NCBI GenBank assembly: GCA_023249635.1
Contig: JAHFCH010000040.1
Span: 1-37,601 of the forward strand
DNA length: 37,601 nucleotides
Source of the DNA: Fibrobacterota bacterium
GTDB taxonomy: Bacteria; Fibrobacterota; Fibrobacteria; UBA11236
Direction: 5' to 3'
The stretch's first letter is position 1. Each line of letters opens with the position of its first letter. Below the pieces are notes generated by a model. That model was not told the origin of the DNA. It ran no database searches and was given only the letters and a program-made list of their open reading frames with translations. The position numbers and the translations under genes are program-made. Positions 21,861 through 34,432 of this stretch are shown one piece after another.

Positions 21861-23546
21861 ATGCCAAACATGCCGACACCCCCGCGTATGGCCGTAATCG
21901 GCCTGTTCTGCGCCGCCCTCGCCTTCCGCCCGATCCTGGCCGAAGGCGTTTCCATGCCCGTGCTGAAAACCACCTTGCCCGCCAGCTGGGATGAGAGCTG
22001 GTTCGGCTCGCCCGTGGTTTTCGATTTGGACGGGGACGGCTCCAAGGAGATCATCGCCTCACGCCATAGCGTGCTATACGTATGGGATGCGGCCGGTAAA
22101 ATCCTTTGGCGCGCCGCGGTCGGCAAAGATGGGGTAACCGACGAGGTACATGGCGGCGATCGCCAATACTCGGGACCGGTGGTGGGCGATCTCGACGGCG
22201 ATGGCAAAGGGGACATCGCCATCGCCTACGGCAATCATATCGCCGTCTACGACTGGCAGGGAAAGGTGAGAGGCGGTTGGCCGCAAACCTTTCCGGGTGC
22301 CGCGGGTGAAATCCGCTCCTTGGCCGCCGCCGATCTCGATAAGGACGGCAAAGCCGAAATCATCGCCGTCAAATCGGCCACCGGCCCGACCACGGCGGCA
22401 TATAGCTTGGCGGGCGTGCTGCTGCCCGGCTGGCCGCAAGCCAAGGACTGCCCGAAGTGCAACGACTACGGAGGCTTCAACCAGAACGTGGGAGCGGCCG
22501 ATTTGGACGGGGACGGGATTCCCGAAGTGGTCGCCACCTTCGATGAGGCTTATATCGGCATCATGCATGCGGACGGCAAACCGTCCGCGGCGGATATTTC
22601 CTTCGCCAAGGCGGGCCCCTGGGCTTCCAGCGTTCCCATGTTCCATGACCTCGCGCTCGCGCAGCAGGGATTCGGCGCGGACGGCAATGATCGGGACGAA
22701 TTCACCGATTCGCCGCCCTCCTTCGCCGATCTCGATGGCGACGGCAAACCCGAGATCATCCTGTACTCCAACCATGAGAAGGCCGGTGATACCGCGGCGT
22801 TGGGCAATTGCCTGTGGGCCTTGCATGGGGACATGACGCGGGTCAAGGGTTTCGAAAAGCCGCTCTGCTCGGATACGCCCATCTTCACCGGCTACTACAA
22901 CAACGTCGTGGAGACGGCGCCGGCTCCCGTCATCGCCAACCTTTCCGGAGACGCGCGTCCGGAAATCGTGGTCGCTTCCAACGACGGGAATATCCGCGGA
23001 TTTTCCGCCGAGGGCGCGGAGTTGTGGAAGTACGGCTACGACGTGAAAGGCGAGCCATGGATCCAGGCTTCCGAACCCGTGGTCGGGGATTTGAACAACG
23101 ATGGCTCCCCGGAAATCGTCTTCACCACGTATAGCGTCGATCAGGGCGTTTCCCACCTCACCATCCTGGATGCGATGGGCAAGATGCAGCGGAAAGCTCC
23201 GCTCGACAAACGCGGTTCCATGGGCGCGCCCACCCTCGCCGACGCCGACGGCGACGGCAAGATCGATATCCTCATCAGCCTCAAGGATGTGGTGGGCGGA
23301 TCCAACGGCGGCGTGCAAATCTGGACCGTGGCCACGGCGGGCGCGAACAAGCCTTTGTGGCCTACCGGCCGCGGCAATTACCTGCGTACGGGCGTGGCGG
23401 GGGGAGCGACTTTACCCGTTCCGCTCCGCTATTTACGGGCCTGGCACGGCATTCCGATACGTGCTGTCGGGTACGATGCCCTAGGCATTCCGTTCGGCAT
23501 TCCGGCGCAGCGGCCCGCGCGCCTACTCCTCTTCCCGGCTCCCTAG
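21861..23546 (+). CDS. Secreted FG-GAP/VCBS beta-propeller protein
   Basis: A 561-residue exported protein with eight calcium-loop repeats of the FG-GAP/VCBS type: DLDGDGSKEI, DLDGDGKGDI, DLDKDGKAEI, DLDGDGIPEV, DLDGDGKPEI, NLSGDARPEI, DLNNDGSPEI and DADGDGKIDI. These suggest a 7-8-bladed propeller binding Ca2+ in most blades; the sixth has lost key acidic residues. The signal peptide is MAVIGLFCAALAFRPILA/E. An open frame continues far upstream but codes nothing plausible, so the start was set at the ATG just before the signal peptide; nearby ATGs are possible because no good Shine-Dalgarno is seen. The last ~50 residues are a poorly conserved tail. The role is adhesion or ligand binding by family analogy. 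Confidence 0.8.
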   Translation: MPNMPTPPRMAVIGLFCAALAFRPILAEGVSMPVLKTTLPASWDESWFGSPVVFDLDGDGSKEIIASRHSVLYVWDAAGKILWRAAVGKDGVTDEVHGGDRQYSGPVVGDLDGDGKGDIAIAYGNHIAVYDWQGKVRGGWPQTFPGAAGEIRSLAAADLDKDGKAEIIAVKSATGPTTAAYSLAGVLLPGWPQAKDCPKCNDYGGFNQNVGAADLDGDGIPEVVATFDEAYIGIMHADGKPSAADISFAKAGPWASSVPMFHDLALAQQGFGADGNDRDEFTDSPPSFADLDGDGKPEIILYSNHEKAGDTAALGNCLWALHGDMTRVKGFEKPLCSDTPIFTGYYNNVVETAPAPVIANLSGDARPEIVVASNDGNIRGFSAEGAELWKYGYDVKGEPWIQASEPVVGDLNNDGSPEIVFTTYSVDQGVSHLTILDAMGKMQRKAPLDKRGSMGAPTLADADGDGKIDILISLKDVVGGSNGGVQIWTVATAGANKPLWPTGRGNYLRTGVAGGATLPVPLRYLRAWHGIPIRAVGYDALGIPFGIPAQRPARLLLFPAP

Positions 23547-23940: not shown

Positions 23941-24237
23941 ATGTGCCGAAACATCAAGACTTTGTTCAACTTCGAACCTCCCGCCACCGAAGAGGAAATC
24001 AAGGCTTCGGCCATCCAATTCGTTCGCAAGCTGAGCGGGTTCAGTAAACCCTCCGCCGCCAACGAAATCGCTTTCAACCTCGCCGTGGAACAGGTGCATG
24101 CGGCCGCGCGCAGCCTGGTGCAATCCCTGGTGACGAACGCCCCCGCGCGCAATCGCGAGTTCGAGATCGCGAAACTTCGTGAAGCTTCCCGCAAACGATT
24201 CGGTCCCGACGTTAAATTCCGAACCCTGGAGAACTGA
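23941..24237 (+). CDS. DUF2277 family protein
   Basis: A 98-residue cytosolic protein matching DUF2277 along its length: MCRNIKTLFNFEPPATEEEIKASAIQFVRKLSGFSKPS, then AFNLAVEQVHAAARSLVQSLVTNAPARNRE. The MCRNI-LFNFEPPAT start is the family signature and fixes the start codon, with GGGGAGAAAA upstream. It is short and all-helical. The family is widespread and uncharacterised. It is the middle gene of a tight group, with only one base before the next start. Confidence 0.93.
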   Translation: MCRNIKTLFNFEPPATEEEIKASAIQFVRKLSGFSKPSAANEIAFNLAVEQVHAAARSLVQSLVTNAPARNREFEIAKLREASRKRFGPDVKFRTLEN

Positions 24238-25414: not shown

Positions 25415-25433
25415 TTGGGACGGCCGTTCCCAA
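25415..25433 (+). promoter_or_regulatory. Hairpin abutting the Shine-Dalgarno of the 48-residue ORF
   Basis: TTGGGA (25415-25420), a 7-base loop and TCCCAA (25428-25433) pair perfectly, and the Shine-Dalgarno AGGAG begins directly at the stem end. The 116-base gap before it also contains a nine-A run (25359-25367). No clear sigma70 boxes were found; an alternative sigma factor or read-through from the ankyrin gene is possible. Confidence 0.4.
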
Positions 25434-25444
25434 GGAGAAAGACC

Positions 25445-25591
25445 ATGACTAAAGTCACCATTTCCGCCGGTTTGGGCTTCGACCTGAACAAACAGAACAA
25501 TATCGCCGACAAGATCACCGCCTCGATGCGCCACGCCCCGTGTACCTCGGCGGTGGACGTGCGCTTCAAGGATATGAGCGGCAGCTTCTAG
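25445..25591 (+). CDS. 48-residue putative RiPP precursor peptide with one cysteine
   Basis: A 48-codon ORF with a strong AAGGAG ribosome-binding site. The N-terminal half (MTKVTISAGLGFDLNK, continuing QNNIADKITASMR) looks like a leader with beta-strand then helix. The second half (HAPCTSAVDVRFKDMSGSF) carries the only cysteine, C33. DUF692 enzymes (MbnB, TglH, HvfB) modify Cys in small peptides encoded next to them, so C33 is the natural candidate site. There is no signal peptide, unlike the bufferin precursors (DUF2282). It is 48 bases upstream of the DUF692 gene on the same strand. The peptide matches no precursor I recognise. That it is translated is well supported; the precursor role is inference. 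Confidence 0.72.
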   Translation: MTKVTISAGLGFDLNKQNNIADKITASMRHAPCTSAVDVRFKDMSGSF

Positions 25592-25639
25592 GCCGAGCGA
25601 AACCACATGTACAAGCGCGACCAGGCGGAGGTTAAGTCG

Positions 25640-27085
25640 ATGGCTAGCAACGGAACTTCGGCCCCTTTGGGCGTGGGCGTAGTGTGGGTGCCCGGTATCG
25701 AGCCCTTGCTCGAACCGGGCATGGATTTGATCGATGTAGTGGAAATCGAACCCCAGATGTATTGGGATTACCTGCCGGACGAGATCTGGCCCTACCGCAT
25801 GCAAAAAGCGGCCTTCGACTACCTGGCCAGGCTGGGCAAGCCCATCCTCGTCCACGGTGTGGGAGGCGCGGCGGCGGGCAGCCATCTTCCTCCCTCCGAA
25901 TTCACGCGCTATTTCCACGAAGTGGTGGCGCAACTGGACCCGGTCTGGGTCAGCGAGCATTTCAGCTTCCTGCACATGCACGGCCCGGAAGGCCGCTATT
26001 TCGCCGGCATGATGCTGCCGGCCCTGCAAACCGAATCCGGGGCCGAAACGGCGGCCCGCAACATCCGCACCGTAACCAGCGGGTTACGCGCCCCCTTCGC
26101 CCTGGAAACCCAGGTCAACTACATGCAATCGCGCTGCGGCAACCTCAGCGACGGCGAGTTCATGGCCAAGGTGGTGAAGAAGCTGGATTGCGGCATCCTG
26201 CTCGACATCCTCAACATCTGGGTCAACCAAAAGAACGGGCGCCAGCCGGTGATGGAATATCTGGATGCCATTCCCCTGGACCGGGTCTGCGAAGTGCACC
26301 TGGCCGGGGCCAAGCTCGATGACGGGGTCTGGCTCGACGCCCATAACGGCACCTTGCAAGACGAGGTACTGGAGCTTACCGAGCGCATCCTGCCCCGCTT
26401 GCCCAAGGTGCGGGCGCTTACCCTGGAAGTCATCCCGTATTTCGTGCCGCGGGCTGGGATGGATCTGCTCGCCCAGCAATTCCAGGTGGTACGCAAACTT
26501 TGGGATGGCCGCCATTCCCTGCCAGCCGATTCACGCCGCACCGCCCGTCCACCCGACGCATCCCCGGTGGCGATGGTCGAACTGGAAGGAGCGGAATCCC
26601 TGGACCCGGAAGCATGGGAAAAGACCCTGGGGGAGTGGACCGCATTCGGGAAAGGCGAAGGCCCTTTATTCGAGCACATGCGGAACGATCGCGGCATGCG
26701 GACCTACCGCATGATCGCCAACAGCTTCCGCTCGGGTAACCTCAGCGATACCATGGGGCTGACCCTGCAATTCCTGCTCCGCTTCCAAGGGCCCGATGCG
26801 GTGGAAAAGCTGCTGGAGGAATATTGCCGCTGGTGCCCGCCGGGACAGTTCCCGTTGAGCGAAGCCAAGACCTTCGTGGCCTTTCTGCGCGAACGTCCCG
26901 TTGACCATCCCTACTGGGCCAACATTCTGGATTTCGACGAGGCGAAGCTGCTGGCGGTGGAAGCCAACCATCCGCGGGAGATCCGTTTCGACTACGATCC
27001 TAATCGCCTGCTGGAAAGCATCGCCAAAGGCGAATTGCCGATGGATTTGCCCCGGGGAAGGTTCCTGGTGGAAGTGACGCCTTGA
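25640..27085 (+). CDS. DUF692 (MbnB/TglH-like) enzyme fused to a C-terminal partner-like domain
   Basis: A 481-residue cytosolic protein. Residues ~10-290 form a DUF692 TIM barrel with the metal-ligand positions of the family: H72 (LVHG), E106-H107 (VSEHFSF), E156 (LETQVNY), D189 and N192 (LLDILNIWVN), H220 (EVHLAGA), D233 and H235 (DAHNG) and E263 (LEVIPY). DUF692 enzymes use two or three iron atoms to oxidise peptide cysteines, normally with a separate partner protein (MbnC, TglI, DUF2063). After a Pro/Arg linker, residues ~310-481 form a helical domain (MRTYRMIANSFRSGNLSDTM, EKLLEEYCRWCPPGQF, DHPYWANILDFDEAKLLAVEA) that resembles such a partner. The ATG with GGAGG upstream was preferred over one 11 codons earlier. 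Reaction and product are unknown. Confidence 0.87.
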   Translation: MASNGTSAPLGVGVVWVPGIEPLLEPGMDLIDVVEIEPQMYWDYLPDEIWPYRMQKAAFDYLARLGKPILVHGVGGAAAGSHLPPSEFTRYFHEVVAQLDPVWVSEHFSFLHMHGPEGRYFAGMMLPALQTESGAETAARNIRTVTSGLRAPFALETQVNYMQSRCGNLSDGEFMAKVVKKLDCGILLDILNIWVNQKNGRQPVMEYLDAIPLDRVCEVHLAGAKLDDGVWLDAHNGTLQDEVLELTERILPRLPKVRALTLEVIPYFVPRAGMDLLAQQFQVVRKLWDGRHSLPADSRRTARPPDASPVAMVELEGAESLDPEAWEKTLGEWTAFGKGEGPLFEHMRNDRGMRTYRMIANSFRSGNLSDTMGLTLQFLLRFQGPDAVEKLLEEYCRWCPPGQFPLSEAKTFVAFLRERPVDHPYWANILDFDEAKLLAVEANHPREIRFDYDPNRLLESIAKGELPMDLPRGRFLVEVTP

Positions 27086-29626: not shown

Positions 29627-29938
29627 CTATGTGCCGAAGCGTTCCAGCATGGCCTGGAAACGGGAAGCGGGCAGGGCGCCCACCTGGCGATGCACGACCT
29701 CGCCCTCCTTCAGTACCAGATAGGTGGGGATAGCCTGCACCGCGAATTTTTCGAACAGTTCGGGAACCGACTCCTGATTCGCTTTCAGGAACCGCATGGC
29801 GGGAAAGCGCGCCGCGGTCTCCTCGTAAATCGGGTCCATCACCTTGCAAGGCGGGCACCACTTGGCCGAAAACGCCAGCACCGAGATCCCGTCCAAATTC
29901 CCTTCCAATACATGTCCTGCATCCAATTGCCGTACCAT
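29627..29938 (-). CDS. Thioredoxin-family protein
   Basis: A 103-residue thioredoxin fold: LAFSAKWCPPCKVMDPIYEE with the active-site pair C28/C31, the strand MRFLKANQESVPELFEKFAVQAIPTYLVLKEG with cis-Pro 71, and a C-terminal helix. The WCPPC site differs from the WCGPC of canonical thioredoxin and is common in redox partners and specialised thioredoxins. It is cytosolic with no signal peptide. AAAGGAG is placed correctly for the ATG. It lies 11 bases after the XRE regulator gene, so it is the second gene of an autoregulated pair. Confidence 0.92.
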   Translation of the reverse strand: MVRQLDAGHVLEGNLDGISVLAFSAKWCPPCKVMDPIYEETAARFPAMRFLKANQESVPELFEKFAVQAIPTYLVLKEGEVVHRQVGALPASRFQAMLERFGT

Positions 29939-29949
29939 ACATTCTCCTT

Positions 29950-30186
29950 TCATCGTTCGTTTCCGCGACCCAGCTCGCTGAAGTTGGGGAAGAAAAAATC
30001 CGGGCGGACGCCCTTCACGTACCCGAAGTCGCACATCAATCCGATATGCTCCGCGCTCGGAACCGAAAATCCGGTTTCCCAGCGGGCCACGGTACATTGC
30101 GGTACCTGAAGGACTTCCCCCAAGGCGACTTGGGTGAGACCAACTTTTTGCCGAAATTGGCGTATTTTCAAGGCTGCGAAGGGCAT
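29950..30186 (-). CDS. XRE-family transcriptional regulator
   Basis: A 78-residue Cro/CI-type DNA-binding protein. The helix-turn-helix spans about residues 8-40 (IRQFRQKVGLTQVALGEVLQVPQCTVARWETG). A short region follows (EHIGLMCDFGYVKGVRPDFFFPNF) with no other domain. The ATG follows AGGTGAT; an upstream frame to the promoter is not translated. Three TATAGCA half-sites cover its own promoter, so it probably represses itself, the following thioredoxin gene and perhaps the divergent membrane-protein gene. No toxin gene is adjacent, so a toxin-antitoxin reading is not supported. Confidence 0.87.
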   Translation of the reverse strand: MPFAALKIRQFRQKVGLTQVALGEVLQVPQCTVARWETGFSVPSAEHIGLMCDFGYVKGVRPDFFFPNFSELGRGNER

Positions 30187-30200
30187 TCTTATATCACCTA

Positions 30201-30234
30201 TGCTATAATATAGCACTAATGCTATATATGTCAA
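30201..30234 (-). promoter_or_regulatory. XRE-thioredoxin promoter with three operator half-sites
   Basis: On the minus strand TTGACA (30229-30234, perfect -35) is followed by TATTAT (30205-30210, 18-base spacer) or TATATT (30207-30212, 16-base spacer). The + strand reads TGCTATA-A-TATAGCA (30201-30215, a perfect 15-base palindrome) and then CTAA-TGCTATA (to 30226). Three half-sites therefore form two overlapping inverted repeats over the -10 and spacer. Confidence 0.75.
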
Positions 30235-30309
30235 GCAGCGATTTGGAGCTTGGTTGCGGAGCCCGAATTTGGTTTGTTTACGCTACCGGTTTTTCCACGG
30301 AGTCGAGAG

Positions 30310-31086
30310 ATGAAAACGCGCACGGGCGAGAGCAAGGTTCCCGAAGTCACCCTGCTTTTCTGGATCATCAAAATCGCGGCCACGACCCTGGGGGAAACCG
30401 GCGGCGATGCGGTGTCCATGTCCATGGACCTGGGATATCTTGTCGGCACGGGGATTTTCGCGGCGCTCTTCATCGCCGCCGCGGCGGTGCAGGTGGCCGC
30501 CAAGCGATTCCATCCCGCTCTCTATTGGTTGACGGTCATCGCCACCACCACGGTAGGCACCACCATGGCCGATTACGCGGACCGCTCCCTGGGAATCGGC
30601 TATGCCGGAGGCAGCACGTTTTTGTTCCTGCTGCTCATGGCTTCCCTCGCCGTATGGCGCTTTACGCTGGGAACGGTTTCGGTCGAGAGCGTCGATAATC
30701 CCAAGGCCGAATGGTTCTATTGGATCACCATCCTGTTCTCCCAGACCCTGGGTACGGCGCTGGGGGATTGGACCGCCGATTCGGCGGGGATGGGCTACGG
30801 CGGAAGCGCATTGCTTTTCGGCGTGTTGCTGGGCTTGGTGGCGGCCGCCTATTATTGGACGCGGATACCGCGTACGGCATTGTTCTGGGCGGCGTTCATT
30901 CTCACGCGGCCATTGGGCGCCGTGGTCGGGGACTTCCTCGATAAACCGCTGGCGAAGGGCGGCTTGGCTTTGAGCCGCTATTCCGCCTCGGCGGTGTTAC
31001 TGGTATTCATCGCGGCCTGCATCTACTTCTTCCGGCAAAAATCCGCCGGCGTGAGCGCAACTACTGAAGACGCCAGACGCGCTTAA
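30310..31086 (+). CDS. COG4705-type membrane protein with four internal repeats
   Basis: A ~258-residue inner-membrane protein with about eight membrane segments arranged as four repeats. Each has a Gly/acidic signature: TLGETGGDAVSMSMDLGYLVG, TVGTTMADYADRSLGIGYAGG, TLGTALGDWTADSAGMGYGGS and PLGAVVGDFLDKPLAKGGLAL. The conserved G-x-x-x-x-D within a repeated membrane unit suggests cation or metal transport, but the family (uncharacterised membrane-anchored protein) has no proven substrate that I can state. The ATG follows GAGTCGAGAG. It is divergent from the XRE regulator, whose operators lie ~80 bases upstream. Confidence 0.8.
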   Translation: MKTRTGESKVPEVTLLFWIIKIAATTLGETGGDAVSMSMDLGYLVGTGIFAALFIAAAAVQVAAKRFHPALYWLTVIATTTVGTTMADYADRSLGIGYAGGSTFLFLLLMASLAVWRFTLGTVSVESVDNPKAEWFYWITILFSQTLGTALGDWTADSAGMGYGGSALLFGVLLGLVAAAYYWTRIPRTALFWAAFILTRPLGAVVGDFLDKPLAKGGLALSRYSASAVLLVFIAACIYFFRQKSAGVSATTEDARRA

Positions 31087-32488: not shown

Positions 32489-34432
32489 ATGAACGGGGAC
32501 TTCTCGTATTTCGTTTCGTTTTTCCGGCGATTCCGTGCCGTATCCGTATTCGCTTCATGTTGCGCATTGGCATTCTTCCTCAGCGGTTGCTTCGACGACA
32601 ACGGAAGTGGAGCCAGGCCGGACCCCGTAGACAAGGGTTTGCCCCGCCTCTTCTCCGATCTCCCTGCCGGACCCGATCCCGTACGCGACTTCGAGGAAGA
32701 AGTGCGTTCGCGCCTGCTTACCGTCGATCCCGTCTTCGCAAGCGGCGATGGCGCGGCGCTCAACGGCACGCAACGCTTCGTGATCAATCTCTTCGACGAC
32801 GCCGCCTATGTGGCCGAGGTCGATCGCAGCGATGCGGAAGAGGCCGGACGCTTCACCCTCAACGGCCATCTCGAAGGGGTGGACGGGAGCTATTTCATCC
32901 TTACCTACAACCAGGGCGCGGTATCGCTCACGGTATACCATCCGGCCTCGGGCTATTTCGATATCGAACCCGCGGGAGACGGCCAGGCCAAGGTCTCGGA
33001 ATTCAAACCCGGCAATCTGCCCCACCTGACCCACGGCATGTTGTATCCCGATGGGGAAATGCATGTGCATACCGACTCCATGCCGATGGATATGCCCATG
33101 GCCAAAGTGGCCGCGAGTACCTCCGTCATCGATATCCTGGTGGTATATACGGCAGCGGCCGTAACGGGATCGGGCGGCGATGCGGCCATGCGCGCGCGCA
33201 TCGACAAGGCGGTGGCCGAAGCCAACAACGCTTTCATCAACAGCAAGATCGACACGCGGCTCAACCTGGTGCGCGCCCAACAGATCAGCTACACGGAATC
33301 GGGCAACCTGGGCACCGACCTCACCCGTCTTCAGAGCAAGACGGATGGATTCATGGACGATGTGCATACGCTGCGCGACACCTACAAGGCCGATCTGGTT
33401 TCCCTGGTGGTGGAAAGCACCAGCGGCGGCATCTCCGGCATCGGCTACGTGATGACCACGGTGAACAGCGGGTTCAAACCCTACGCCTTCACTACGGTCG
33501 CGCGTCCGTATACCGGCAGCTACAATACCCTGGCCCACGAAGTAGGGCATAACCTCGGCTGCGCCCATGATCGCCAGAACAGCTCCAGCCAGGCGGCGTA
33601 CCCGTACAGTTACGGCTACCGCTTCACGGCGAACGGCGTCCAGTACCGCACCATCATGGCCTACGCCCCGGGCACCCCCATTCCCAACTACTCCAATCCC
33701 AATGTGCTGTACCTGGGCGTACCCACCGGCATTCCGGACGGCCAGGCCAACTCCGCGGACAACGCGCGCACCATCAACGCCACCTCTCCCACCACCATGG
33801 CCTTCTACGTGGGCACCCCGCCCGCGCCCAAGAACGCGCTGCTCGTGGTCGGCAACGCCACCCTCAACGCGGGCGATCAGGCCGTATCCAACCGTCTGCT
33901 ATCCCTGGGCTACACCGTTACGGTCAAAGCCGCGGCGGCTTCCGTGGCCGGTGATGCGGCCGGCAAGAACCTGATCGCGATCTCGTCCACGGTCGCTTCC
34001 GCGGACGTAAACACCAAATTCCGCGCTACCGCGGTAGGCGTCATCAACTGGGAACAGGCGCTCCAGGATGATTTCGGCATGATCAGCACGGTGGCGGGAA
34101 GCGGCGGAACCACGACGGGCCAGACCAAGGTGCAAATCTCGGCGACCGCCCATGCGATTTCGGCTGGCCTTACCGGAACCCAGACGGTGACGACCGCGGC
34201 AGGCGACTATGCTTGGGGGAAACCCAATGCGAACGCGGCTTCGGTGGCGACCCAGGTAGGTGACGCCACCAAGGTGCCCGTATACGCCTATGAGAAAGGC
34301 GCGGCCATGGTGGGACTCACCGCTCCCGGGCGCCGCGTGCAATTGTTCCTGACCGACGTCACGGCGGGCAGCCTCACGACTTCGGGTTGGACCTTGTTCG
34401 ACAACGCGGTGAAGTGGGCTGCCGGTCCTTGA
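32489..34432 (+). CDS. Metzincin metalloprotease lipoprotein
   Basis: A 647-residue exported zinc protease. The signal peptide contains a lipobox-like FLSGC, so it may be surface-anchored. A propeptide-like region (about 40-205) with VNLFDDAAYVAEV-type strands precedes the catalytic domain (about 210-440). The zinc motif is H350-E351-VGH-NLGC-A-H360 (HExxHxxGxxH) with a Met-turn IMAYAP, as in reprolysin-like M12B peptidases. The last ~200 residues (ALLVVGNATLNAGDQAVSNRLLSLGYTVTV ... GVINWEQALQDDFGM ... RRVQLFLTD) look like a separate flavodoxin/ThuA-like alpha/beta domain. AAAGGAAA precedes the ATG. Substrate unknown. Confidence 0.88.
   Translation: MNGDFSYFVSFFRRFRAVSVFASCCALAFFLSGCFDDNGSGARPDPVDKGLPRLFSDLPAGPDPVRDFEEEVRSRLLTVDPVFASGDGAALNGTQRFVINLFDDAAYVAEVDRSDAEEAGRFTLNGHLEGVDGSYFILTYNQGAVSLTVYHPASGYFDIEPAGDGQAKVSEFKPGNLPHLTHGMLYPDGEMHVHTDSMPMDMPMAKVAASTSVIDILVVYTAAAVTGSGGDAAMRARIDKAVAEANNAFINSKIDTRLNLVRAQQISYTESGNLGTDLTRLQSKTDGFMDDVHTLRDTYKADLVSLVVESTSGGISGIGYVMTTVNSGFKPYAFTTVARPYTGSYNTLAHEVGHNLGCAHDRQNSSSQAAYPYSYGYRFTANGVQYRTIMAYAPGTPIPNYSNPNVLYLGVPTGIPDGQANSADNARTINATSPTTMAFYVGTPPAPKNALLVVGNATLNAGDQAVSNRLLSLGYTVTVKAAAASVAGDAAGKNLIAISSTVASADVNTKFRATAVGVINWEQALQDDFGMISTVAGSGGTTTGQTKVQISATAHAISAGLTGTQTVTTAAGDYAWGKPNANAASVATQVGDATKVPVYAYEKGAAMVGLTAPGRRVQLFLTDVTAGSLTTSGWTLFDNAVKWAAGP

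Follow-up and report, generated by a model that had tools for sequence, protein, structure and literature searches.

The stretch of DNA considered here, referred to as the window, comprises 37,601 nucleotides of a Fibrobacterota bacterium and carries on its forward strand a pair of genes in which a very small open reading frame directly precedes the gene of an MNIO (DUF692) enzyme. The first gene (25445–25591) encodes a 48-residue peptide, MTKVTISAGLGFDLNKQNNIADKITASMRHAPCTSAVDVRFKDMSGSF, which is the putative substrate of the enzyme and has a single Cys at position 33, within SMRHAPCTSAVDVRFKDMSGS. Its ribosome-binding site, AAGGAG (25432–25437, forward strand), lies 7 nt 5' of the ATG, and AAAGGAG is found at the matching place in G004, a genome of the same genus. 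The second gene (25640–27085), which begins 48 bp after the end of the first, encodes a 481-residue MNIO with a C-terminal extension. An initial sequence-only reading had singled out this arrangement, i.e., a small ORF with a ribosome-binding site and one Cys right before a DUF692 gene, and its coordinates, the AAGGAG, C33, and the PF05114 assignment were all verified. The enzyme start was revised: the reading frame is open from 25607, where that reading had placed the start, but the start conserved with G004 is the ATG at 25640, so that the former is likely 33 bp too early. This ATG is preceded by GGCGGAGG, while G004 has AAGGAGGAGG, then ATGGCCGGCAATGGAACC, and on the basis of this conservation the enzyme probably starts at 25640.

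Regarding the peptide, its N-terminus is charged and has no hydrophobic stretch, and no match was found among the known precursor families represented by Pfam and NCBIfam profiles, in agreement with the earlier view that it does not resemble known precursors. The signal peptide and the several Cys residues that mark bufferins (Buf1/Buf2/EGKCG) are both absent from it.

The enzyme matches PF05114 with 134 bits, against a curated cut-off of 25 (E = 7e-39), and the segment aligned with this catalytic domain spans 25811–26416. Aligned with ordinary MNIOs and with the structure 3bww, and numbered from 25640, the enzyme retains all the iron-site residues, namely H72, H107, E156, N192, H220, D233-x-H235, and E263, the last encoded just outside the domain match (26426–26428). 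We take H72, H107, E156, H220, and E263 to belong to the iron sites by reference to MbnB and TglH. The remaining three, N192, D233, and H235, align with N175, D242, and H244 of HvfB, which are essential in that enzyme (PMC13419390). It is nearly certain that the protein is an MNIO with an intact iron site. In addition, the sequence was compared with the NCBIfam equivalog models, and all the cut-offs were missed: BufB (118 bits of the 310 needed), ApyH (83 of 400, the second-best subfamily match), HvfB (83 of 360), ChrH (36 of 600), and MbnB (30 of 325). Since no cut-off of a characterised subfamily is reached, membership gives no basis for inferring the chemistry. The full-length AlphaFold model, computed from two sequences, has low confidence (pLDDT 48), and the best structural match of its barrel is TglH, a Cys-modifying MNIO.

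A search for relatives of the enzyme in 151 genomes returned one full-length orthologue, in G004, which is 64–65% identical (65% over the full length). Directly upstream of its gene lies that of a 49-residue peptide, MSQKVTIPAGLGFDLNKKHNIADKIIASMRHAPCTSAVDVRFKDMSGSV, which is 88% identical to the one in the window, so that the order of peptide gene and enzyme gene is common to both genomes; a conserved small gene adjoining that of the MNIO is one of the features by which MNIO-modified RiPP systems are recognised. The stretch SMRHAPCTSAVDVRFKDMSGS around C33 is identical in G004, and the longest invariant stretch of the two peptides, ASMRHAPCTSAVDVRFKDMSGS, also contains this residue. The sequence-only reading had named a lack of conservation of the peptide or of C33 next to related DUF692 genes as a reason to discard its idea; in the sole close relative of the enzyme both are kept. 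D38, F41, and D43 are invariant as well, while the C-terminal residue differs (F/V). At the codon level, synonymous differences affect 21 of the 48 codons and non-synonymous ones 6 (pS 0.66 against pN 0.07), corresponding to a saturated dS of about 1.6, a dN of 0.075, and a dN/dS of about 0.05. The enzyme gives a dS of 1.1, a dN of 0.27, and a dN/dS of about 0.25, and the lower ratio of the peptide indicates that it is under the stronger constraint. Judged from the orthologue in the same order, the codon pattern, and the conserved start and ribosome-binding site, the small ORF is a real and strongly selected gene. As a single other occurrence is known, conservation does not single out a target residue, and two peptide sequences do not suffice to tell leader from core.

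The enzyme with its extension, together with the peptide, occurs in only two of the 168 genomes of the phylum, namely the source genome and G004, which group as sisters in a tree built from two genes and covering six congeners plus one further member of the family. The pair was therefore either acquired a single time or lost from the remaining genomes; its base composition is that of its surroundings. Beyond the phylum, viral contigs contained no relative, and plasmids had just ordinary MNIOs, whose alignments extended over about half of the query, along with peptide matches at E values of at least 5. Scans of the contigs of named genomes with patterns from the enzyme and peptide alignment returned no relative either; they rely on exact short patterns, and with those of the enzyme even the G004 orthologue would have been passed over, so that they do not demonstrate absence.

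The C-terminal extension (residues 318–481, 26591–27082) is about 165 residues long and likely represents a DUF2063/HvfC-type partner domain of the kind called "PME-type 2", fused to the MNIO. The case comes from profile comparison, the best-matching core being 26684–26908. In hhalign, the two-sequence extension scored 27.2 against 13 DUF2063 regions, compared with 12.1 ± 2.3 (maximum 24.9) for 300 column shuffles, and 27.5 against whole partner proteins, a value reached by one of 300 shuffles. The 298 decoys taken from real proteins scored at most 18.8, and the extension of each orthologue alone scored above all of them (24.9 and 21.5). Moreover, the tblastn alignment of the enzyme runs from a Burkholderia glumae MNIO through the junction and on into its DUF2063 partner, in their natural gene order. 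The alignment with partner proteins had inconsistent registers at first, and a local L-INS-i alignment with more partners, together with hhalign, gave a consistent one.

Alternatively, the extension might be an unrelated helical domain, with the enzyme working alone or borrowing a DUF2063 protein from another locus, such proteins being encoded at two other places in the genome. This would agree with the lack of any match of the extension in Pfam (E up to 10, the PF09836 signature being absent), NCBIfam, or the sequences of the PDB. It would also agree with the Foldseek result: the AlphaFold model of the extension alone, again from two sequences, has a helical core mostly at a pLDDT of about 70–81, and this moderate-confidence model gave no significant match, which leaves the DUF2063 fold unconfirmed. 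However, a score so far above shuffles and decoys, with each orthologue on its own also exceeding every decoy, and an alignment running through the MNIO-partner junction make an unrelated domain unlikely, if still a reading of some weight. The partner thus appears to be fused rather than absent. The sequence-only reading had stated that no transporter or other maturation gene is adjacent; as regards maturation, this overlooked the partner-like domain inside the enzyme chain.

The literature offers several points of reference for such an architecture. "PME-type 2" partners resemble DUF2063 proteins yet escape the signature of that family, and precursors devoid of a signal peptide go with partners of this type (Antoine et al. 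2025, PMC12452194). The same work mentions MNIO-nitroreductase fusions and the winged-helix domain of MovX, and MovX and ChrH are named elsewhere as exceptions with extra domains (PMC13419390). In the latter study an engineered HvfB-HvfC fusion was active, and HvfC was required for the active iron state. The portions of PMC12452194 and PMC13419390 available to us contain no mention of a natural MNIO-DUF2063 fusion, and no claim of priority is made.

In its gene content, the pair resembles the MNIO-modified RiPP systems. It shares with the bufferin/oxazolin systems (BufABC, HvfABC) a putative precursor gene right before the MNIO gene, a likely DUF2063-type partner, and the iron-site residues, and it differs from them in having a precursor with one Cys and no signal peptide, an apparently fused partner, an enzyme that reaches neither the BufB nor the HvfB cut-off, and no DoxX, sigma, or NrsF gene at the locus. 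Like the engineered HvfB-HvfC protein, it appears to unite an MNIO and a DUF2063-type partner in one chain; that fusion was made in the laboratory (PMC13419390), whereas the one described here would be a natural one, in which the partner part is shorter and the putative substrate a different one. MovX, from the methanobactin-like clusters of Vibrio, is an MNIO that also carries a C-terminal recognition domain of its own, but this is a winged-helix/RRE domain and the enzyme acts on Asn, while the extension of the present enzyme resembles DUF2063. TglHI, of the 3-thiaglutamate pathway, and the other PME-type 2 systems (ApyHI, PbsCD, adjamnio-1, and -2) likewise combine a signal-less precursor with a partner escaping the DUF2063 signature, TglH being in addition the best structural match. 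In these systems the partner is a separate protein, and the Cys of TglA is C-terminal, whereas that of our peptide is internal.

The source genome encodes two further, ordinary MNIOs. One of them (G000:C319:93519-94301) adjoins a gene for a Cys-rich, lipoprotein-like precursor with CKG repeats (L003:2367-2669, reverse strand) and a DUF2063 partner, and by its gene content it is a bufferin/oxazolin-type locus; a standard system thus coexists with the fused variant. Across the genus, in all six genomes the genes of one ordinary MNIO (L002, L007, L008, L010, L012, L015) and of its likely DUF2063 partner (L078-L082, L084) are found on separate contigs, and these MNIOs have no conserved small precursor with Cys alongside them.

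Downstream of the pair and convergent to it, in both the source genome and G004, lies an operon made of a thioredoxin gene (29627–29953, reverse strand; WCPPC; PF00085, TIGR01068), a possible accessory gene, and a gene for a small XRE-type HTH regulator (29950–30186, reverse strand; PF01381) that overlaps the thioredoxin start. Two genes intervene between the pair and this operon in the window, and about 670 bp in G004. The G004 orthologues are 90% (HTH) and 77% (thioredoxin) identical, and both genes occur only in the two pair-carrying genomes and in none of the other eight of the family (2/10). As this concerns one lineage, a functional link with the pair is possible and is to be taken as a lead, not as proof. 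Two palindromes, TATAGCA-N4-TGCTATA (30190–30226), precede the HTH gene, with the arrangement repeated in G004, and from their position they are likely operators of the small regulator; none occur elsewhere in the window.

Pfam profiles revealed no gene for a transporter or a peptidase in the interval from the pair to the operon or immediately before the pair. A secreted M12B-type peptidase gene lies further away in the window (32489–34432), and the region of G004 that was compared contains no counterpart. Three other genes are near the pair in both genomes, encoding an FG-GAP/VCBS-like protein (21880–23546), a DUF2277 protein (23941–24237), and a DUF347 membrane protein (30250–31086); the last has moved and still accompanies the pair, which indicates a neighbourhood that is shuffled but kept together. 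As functional members, the DUF2277 gene was rejected because three congeners have it without the pair, and the ankyrin and beta-helix neighbours because they are not conserved beside it.

Taken together, we favour, with a probability of roughly 0.55, the view that the pair is a minimal RiPP-type unit in which a fused MNIO-partner enzyme oxidises the 48-residue peptide, with C33 as the probable site, to give a cytosolic product. It is the best explanation of the conserved order of the two genes, the stronger constraint on the peptide, and the location of C33 in the longest invariant stretch, together with the intact iron site, the match to TglH, and an extension similar to DUF2063 partners. It also accords with the pairing of signal-less precursors with signature-escaping partners (PMC12452194) and with the role of HvfC and the activity of its fusion with HvfB (PMC13419390). 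Under this proposal, the adjacent peptide would likely be the substrate of the MNIO, and the fused DUF2063-like domain would bind its N-terminal half and bring the diiron site into the active mixed-valent state, a role that HvfC plays for HvfB. C33, the probable modification site, would bind the ferric iron and O2 the ferrous one, and the Cys would undergo an oxidation, most likely a four-electron one, yielding a thiooxazole or an oxazolone/thioamide. The modified peptide would then stay in the cytosol or be processed by housekeeping enzymes. Given that the unit has no signal peptide, transporter, or protease gene and that the whole peptide is conserved, a full-length product probably working in the cytosol is envisaged, perhaps a small protein with a metal- or redox-based activity.

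The peptide might instead be the substrate through a residue other than Cys, for instance with D38 or D43 undergoing beta-hydroxylation, or F41 or an Asn being oxidised. Asp, Asn, Phe, and homocitrulline are all known targets of MNIOs (PMC12452194; PMC13060819), ApyH is the second-best subfamily match, and D38, F41, and D43 are all invariant. However, Cys is the target in most known MNIO substrates, the Asp hydroxylases PesH and PflD are without the third-iron motif (PMC13060819) whereas N192, D233, and H235 are kept here, and a C-terminal reaction like that of ApyH sits poorly with a last residue that varies between the species, so that we hold this option to be rather improbable.

A still less credible option is that the peptide is an unmodified regulatory or structural subunit and that the enzyme targets another protein. 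The conservation of the peptide throughout, unlike that of typical RiPP precursors with their fast-evolving core, would fit, and full-size proteins have been suggested as targets of some MNIOs (PMC12452194); against this, the gene just before the enzyme in MNIO systems is usually that of the precursor (PMC12452194), and two sister species leave little time for a core to diverge. Finally, short ORFs commonly arise by chance, but a chance reading frame is refuted here by the excess of synonymous over non-synonymous changes at saturated dS and by the conserved start and ribosome-binding site.

Returning to the oxidised, cytosolic peptide, a more specific and doubtful extension of the proposal is that a natural single-chain MNIO-partner enzyme acts on one residue of the peptide, which would be a small cytosolic protein working at full length: it would carry a genetically encoded, iron-installed metal or redox cofactor, be served by its own thioredoxin, and not be a secreted natural product.

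The chemistry of MNIOs cannot yet be predicted from sequence, and the weak binding of their partners has been an obstacle to their study. For HvfB, an active complex was obtained by engineering a fusion (PMC13419390). If our proposal is true, the pair would be a natural one-chain version of such a complex which, with a 48-residue substrate containing a single Cys, would offer a minimal and easily tested two-gene system. The range of MNIO substrates would moreover come to include a precursor that is conserved over its whole length, which would hint at a small modified protein with an intracellular job.
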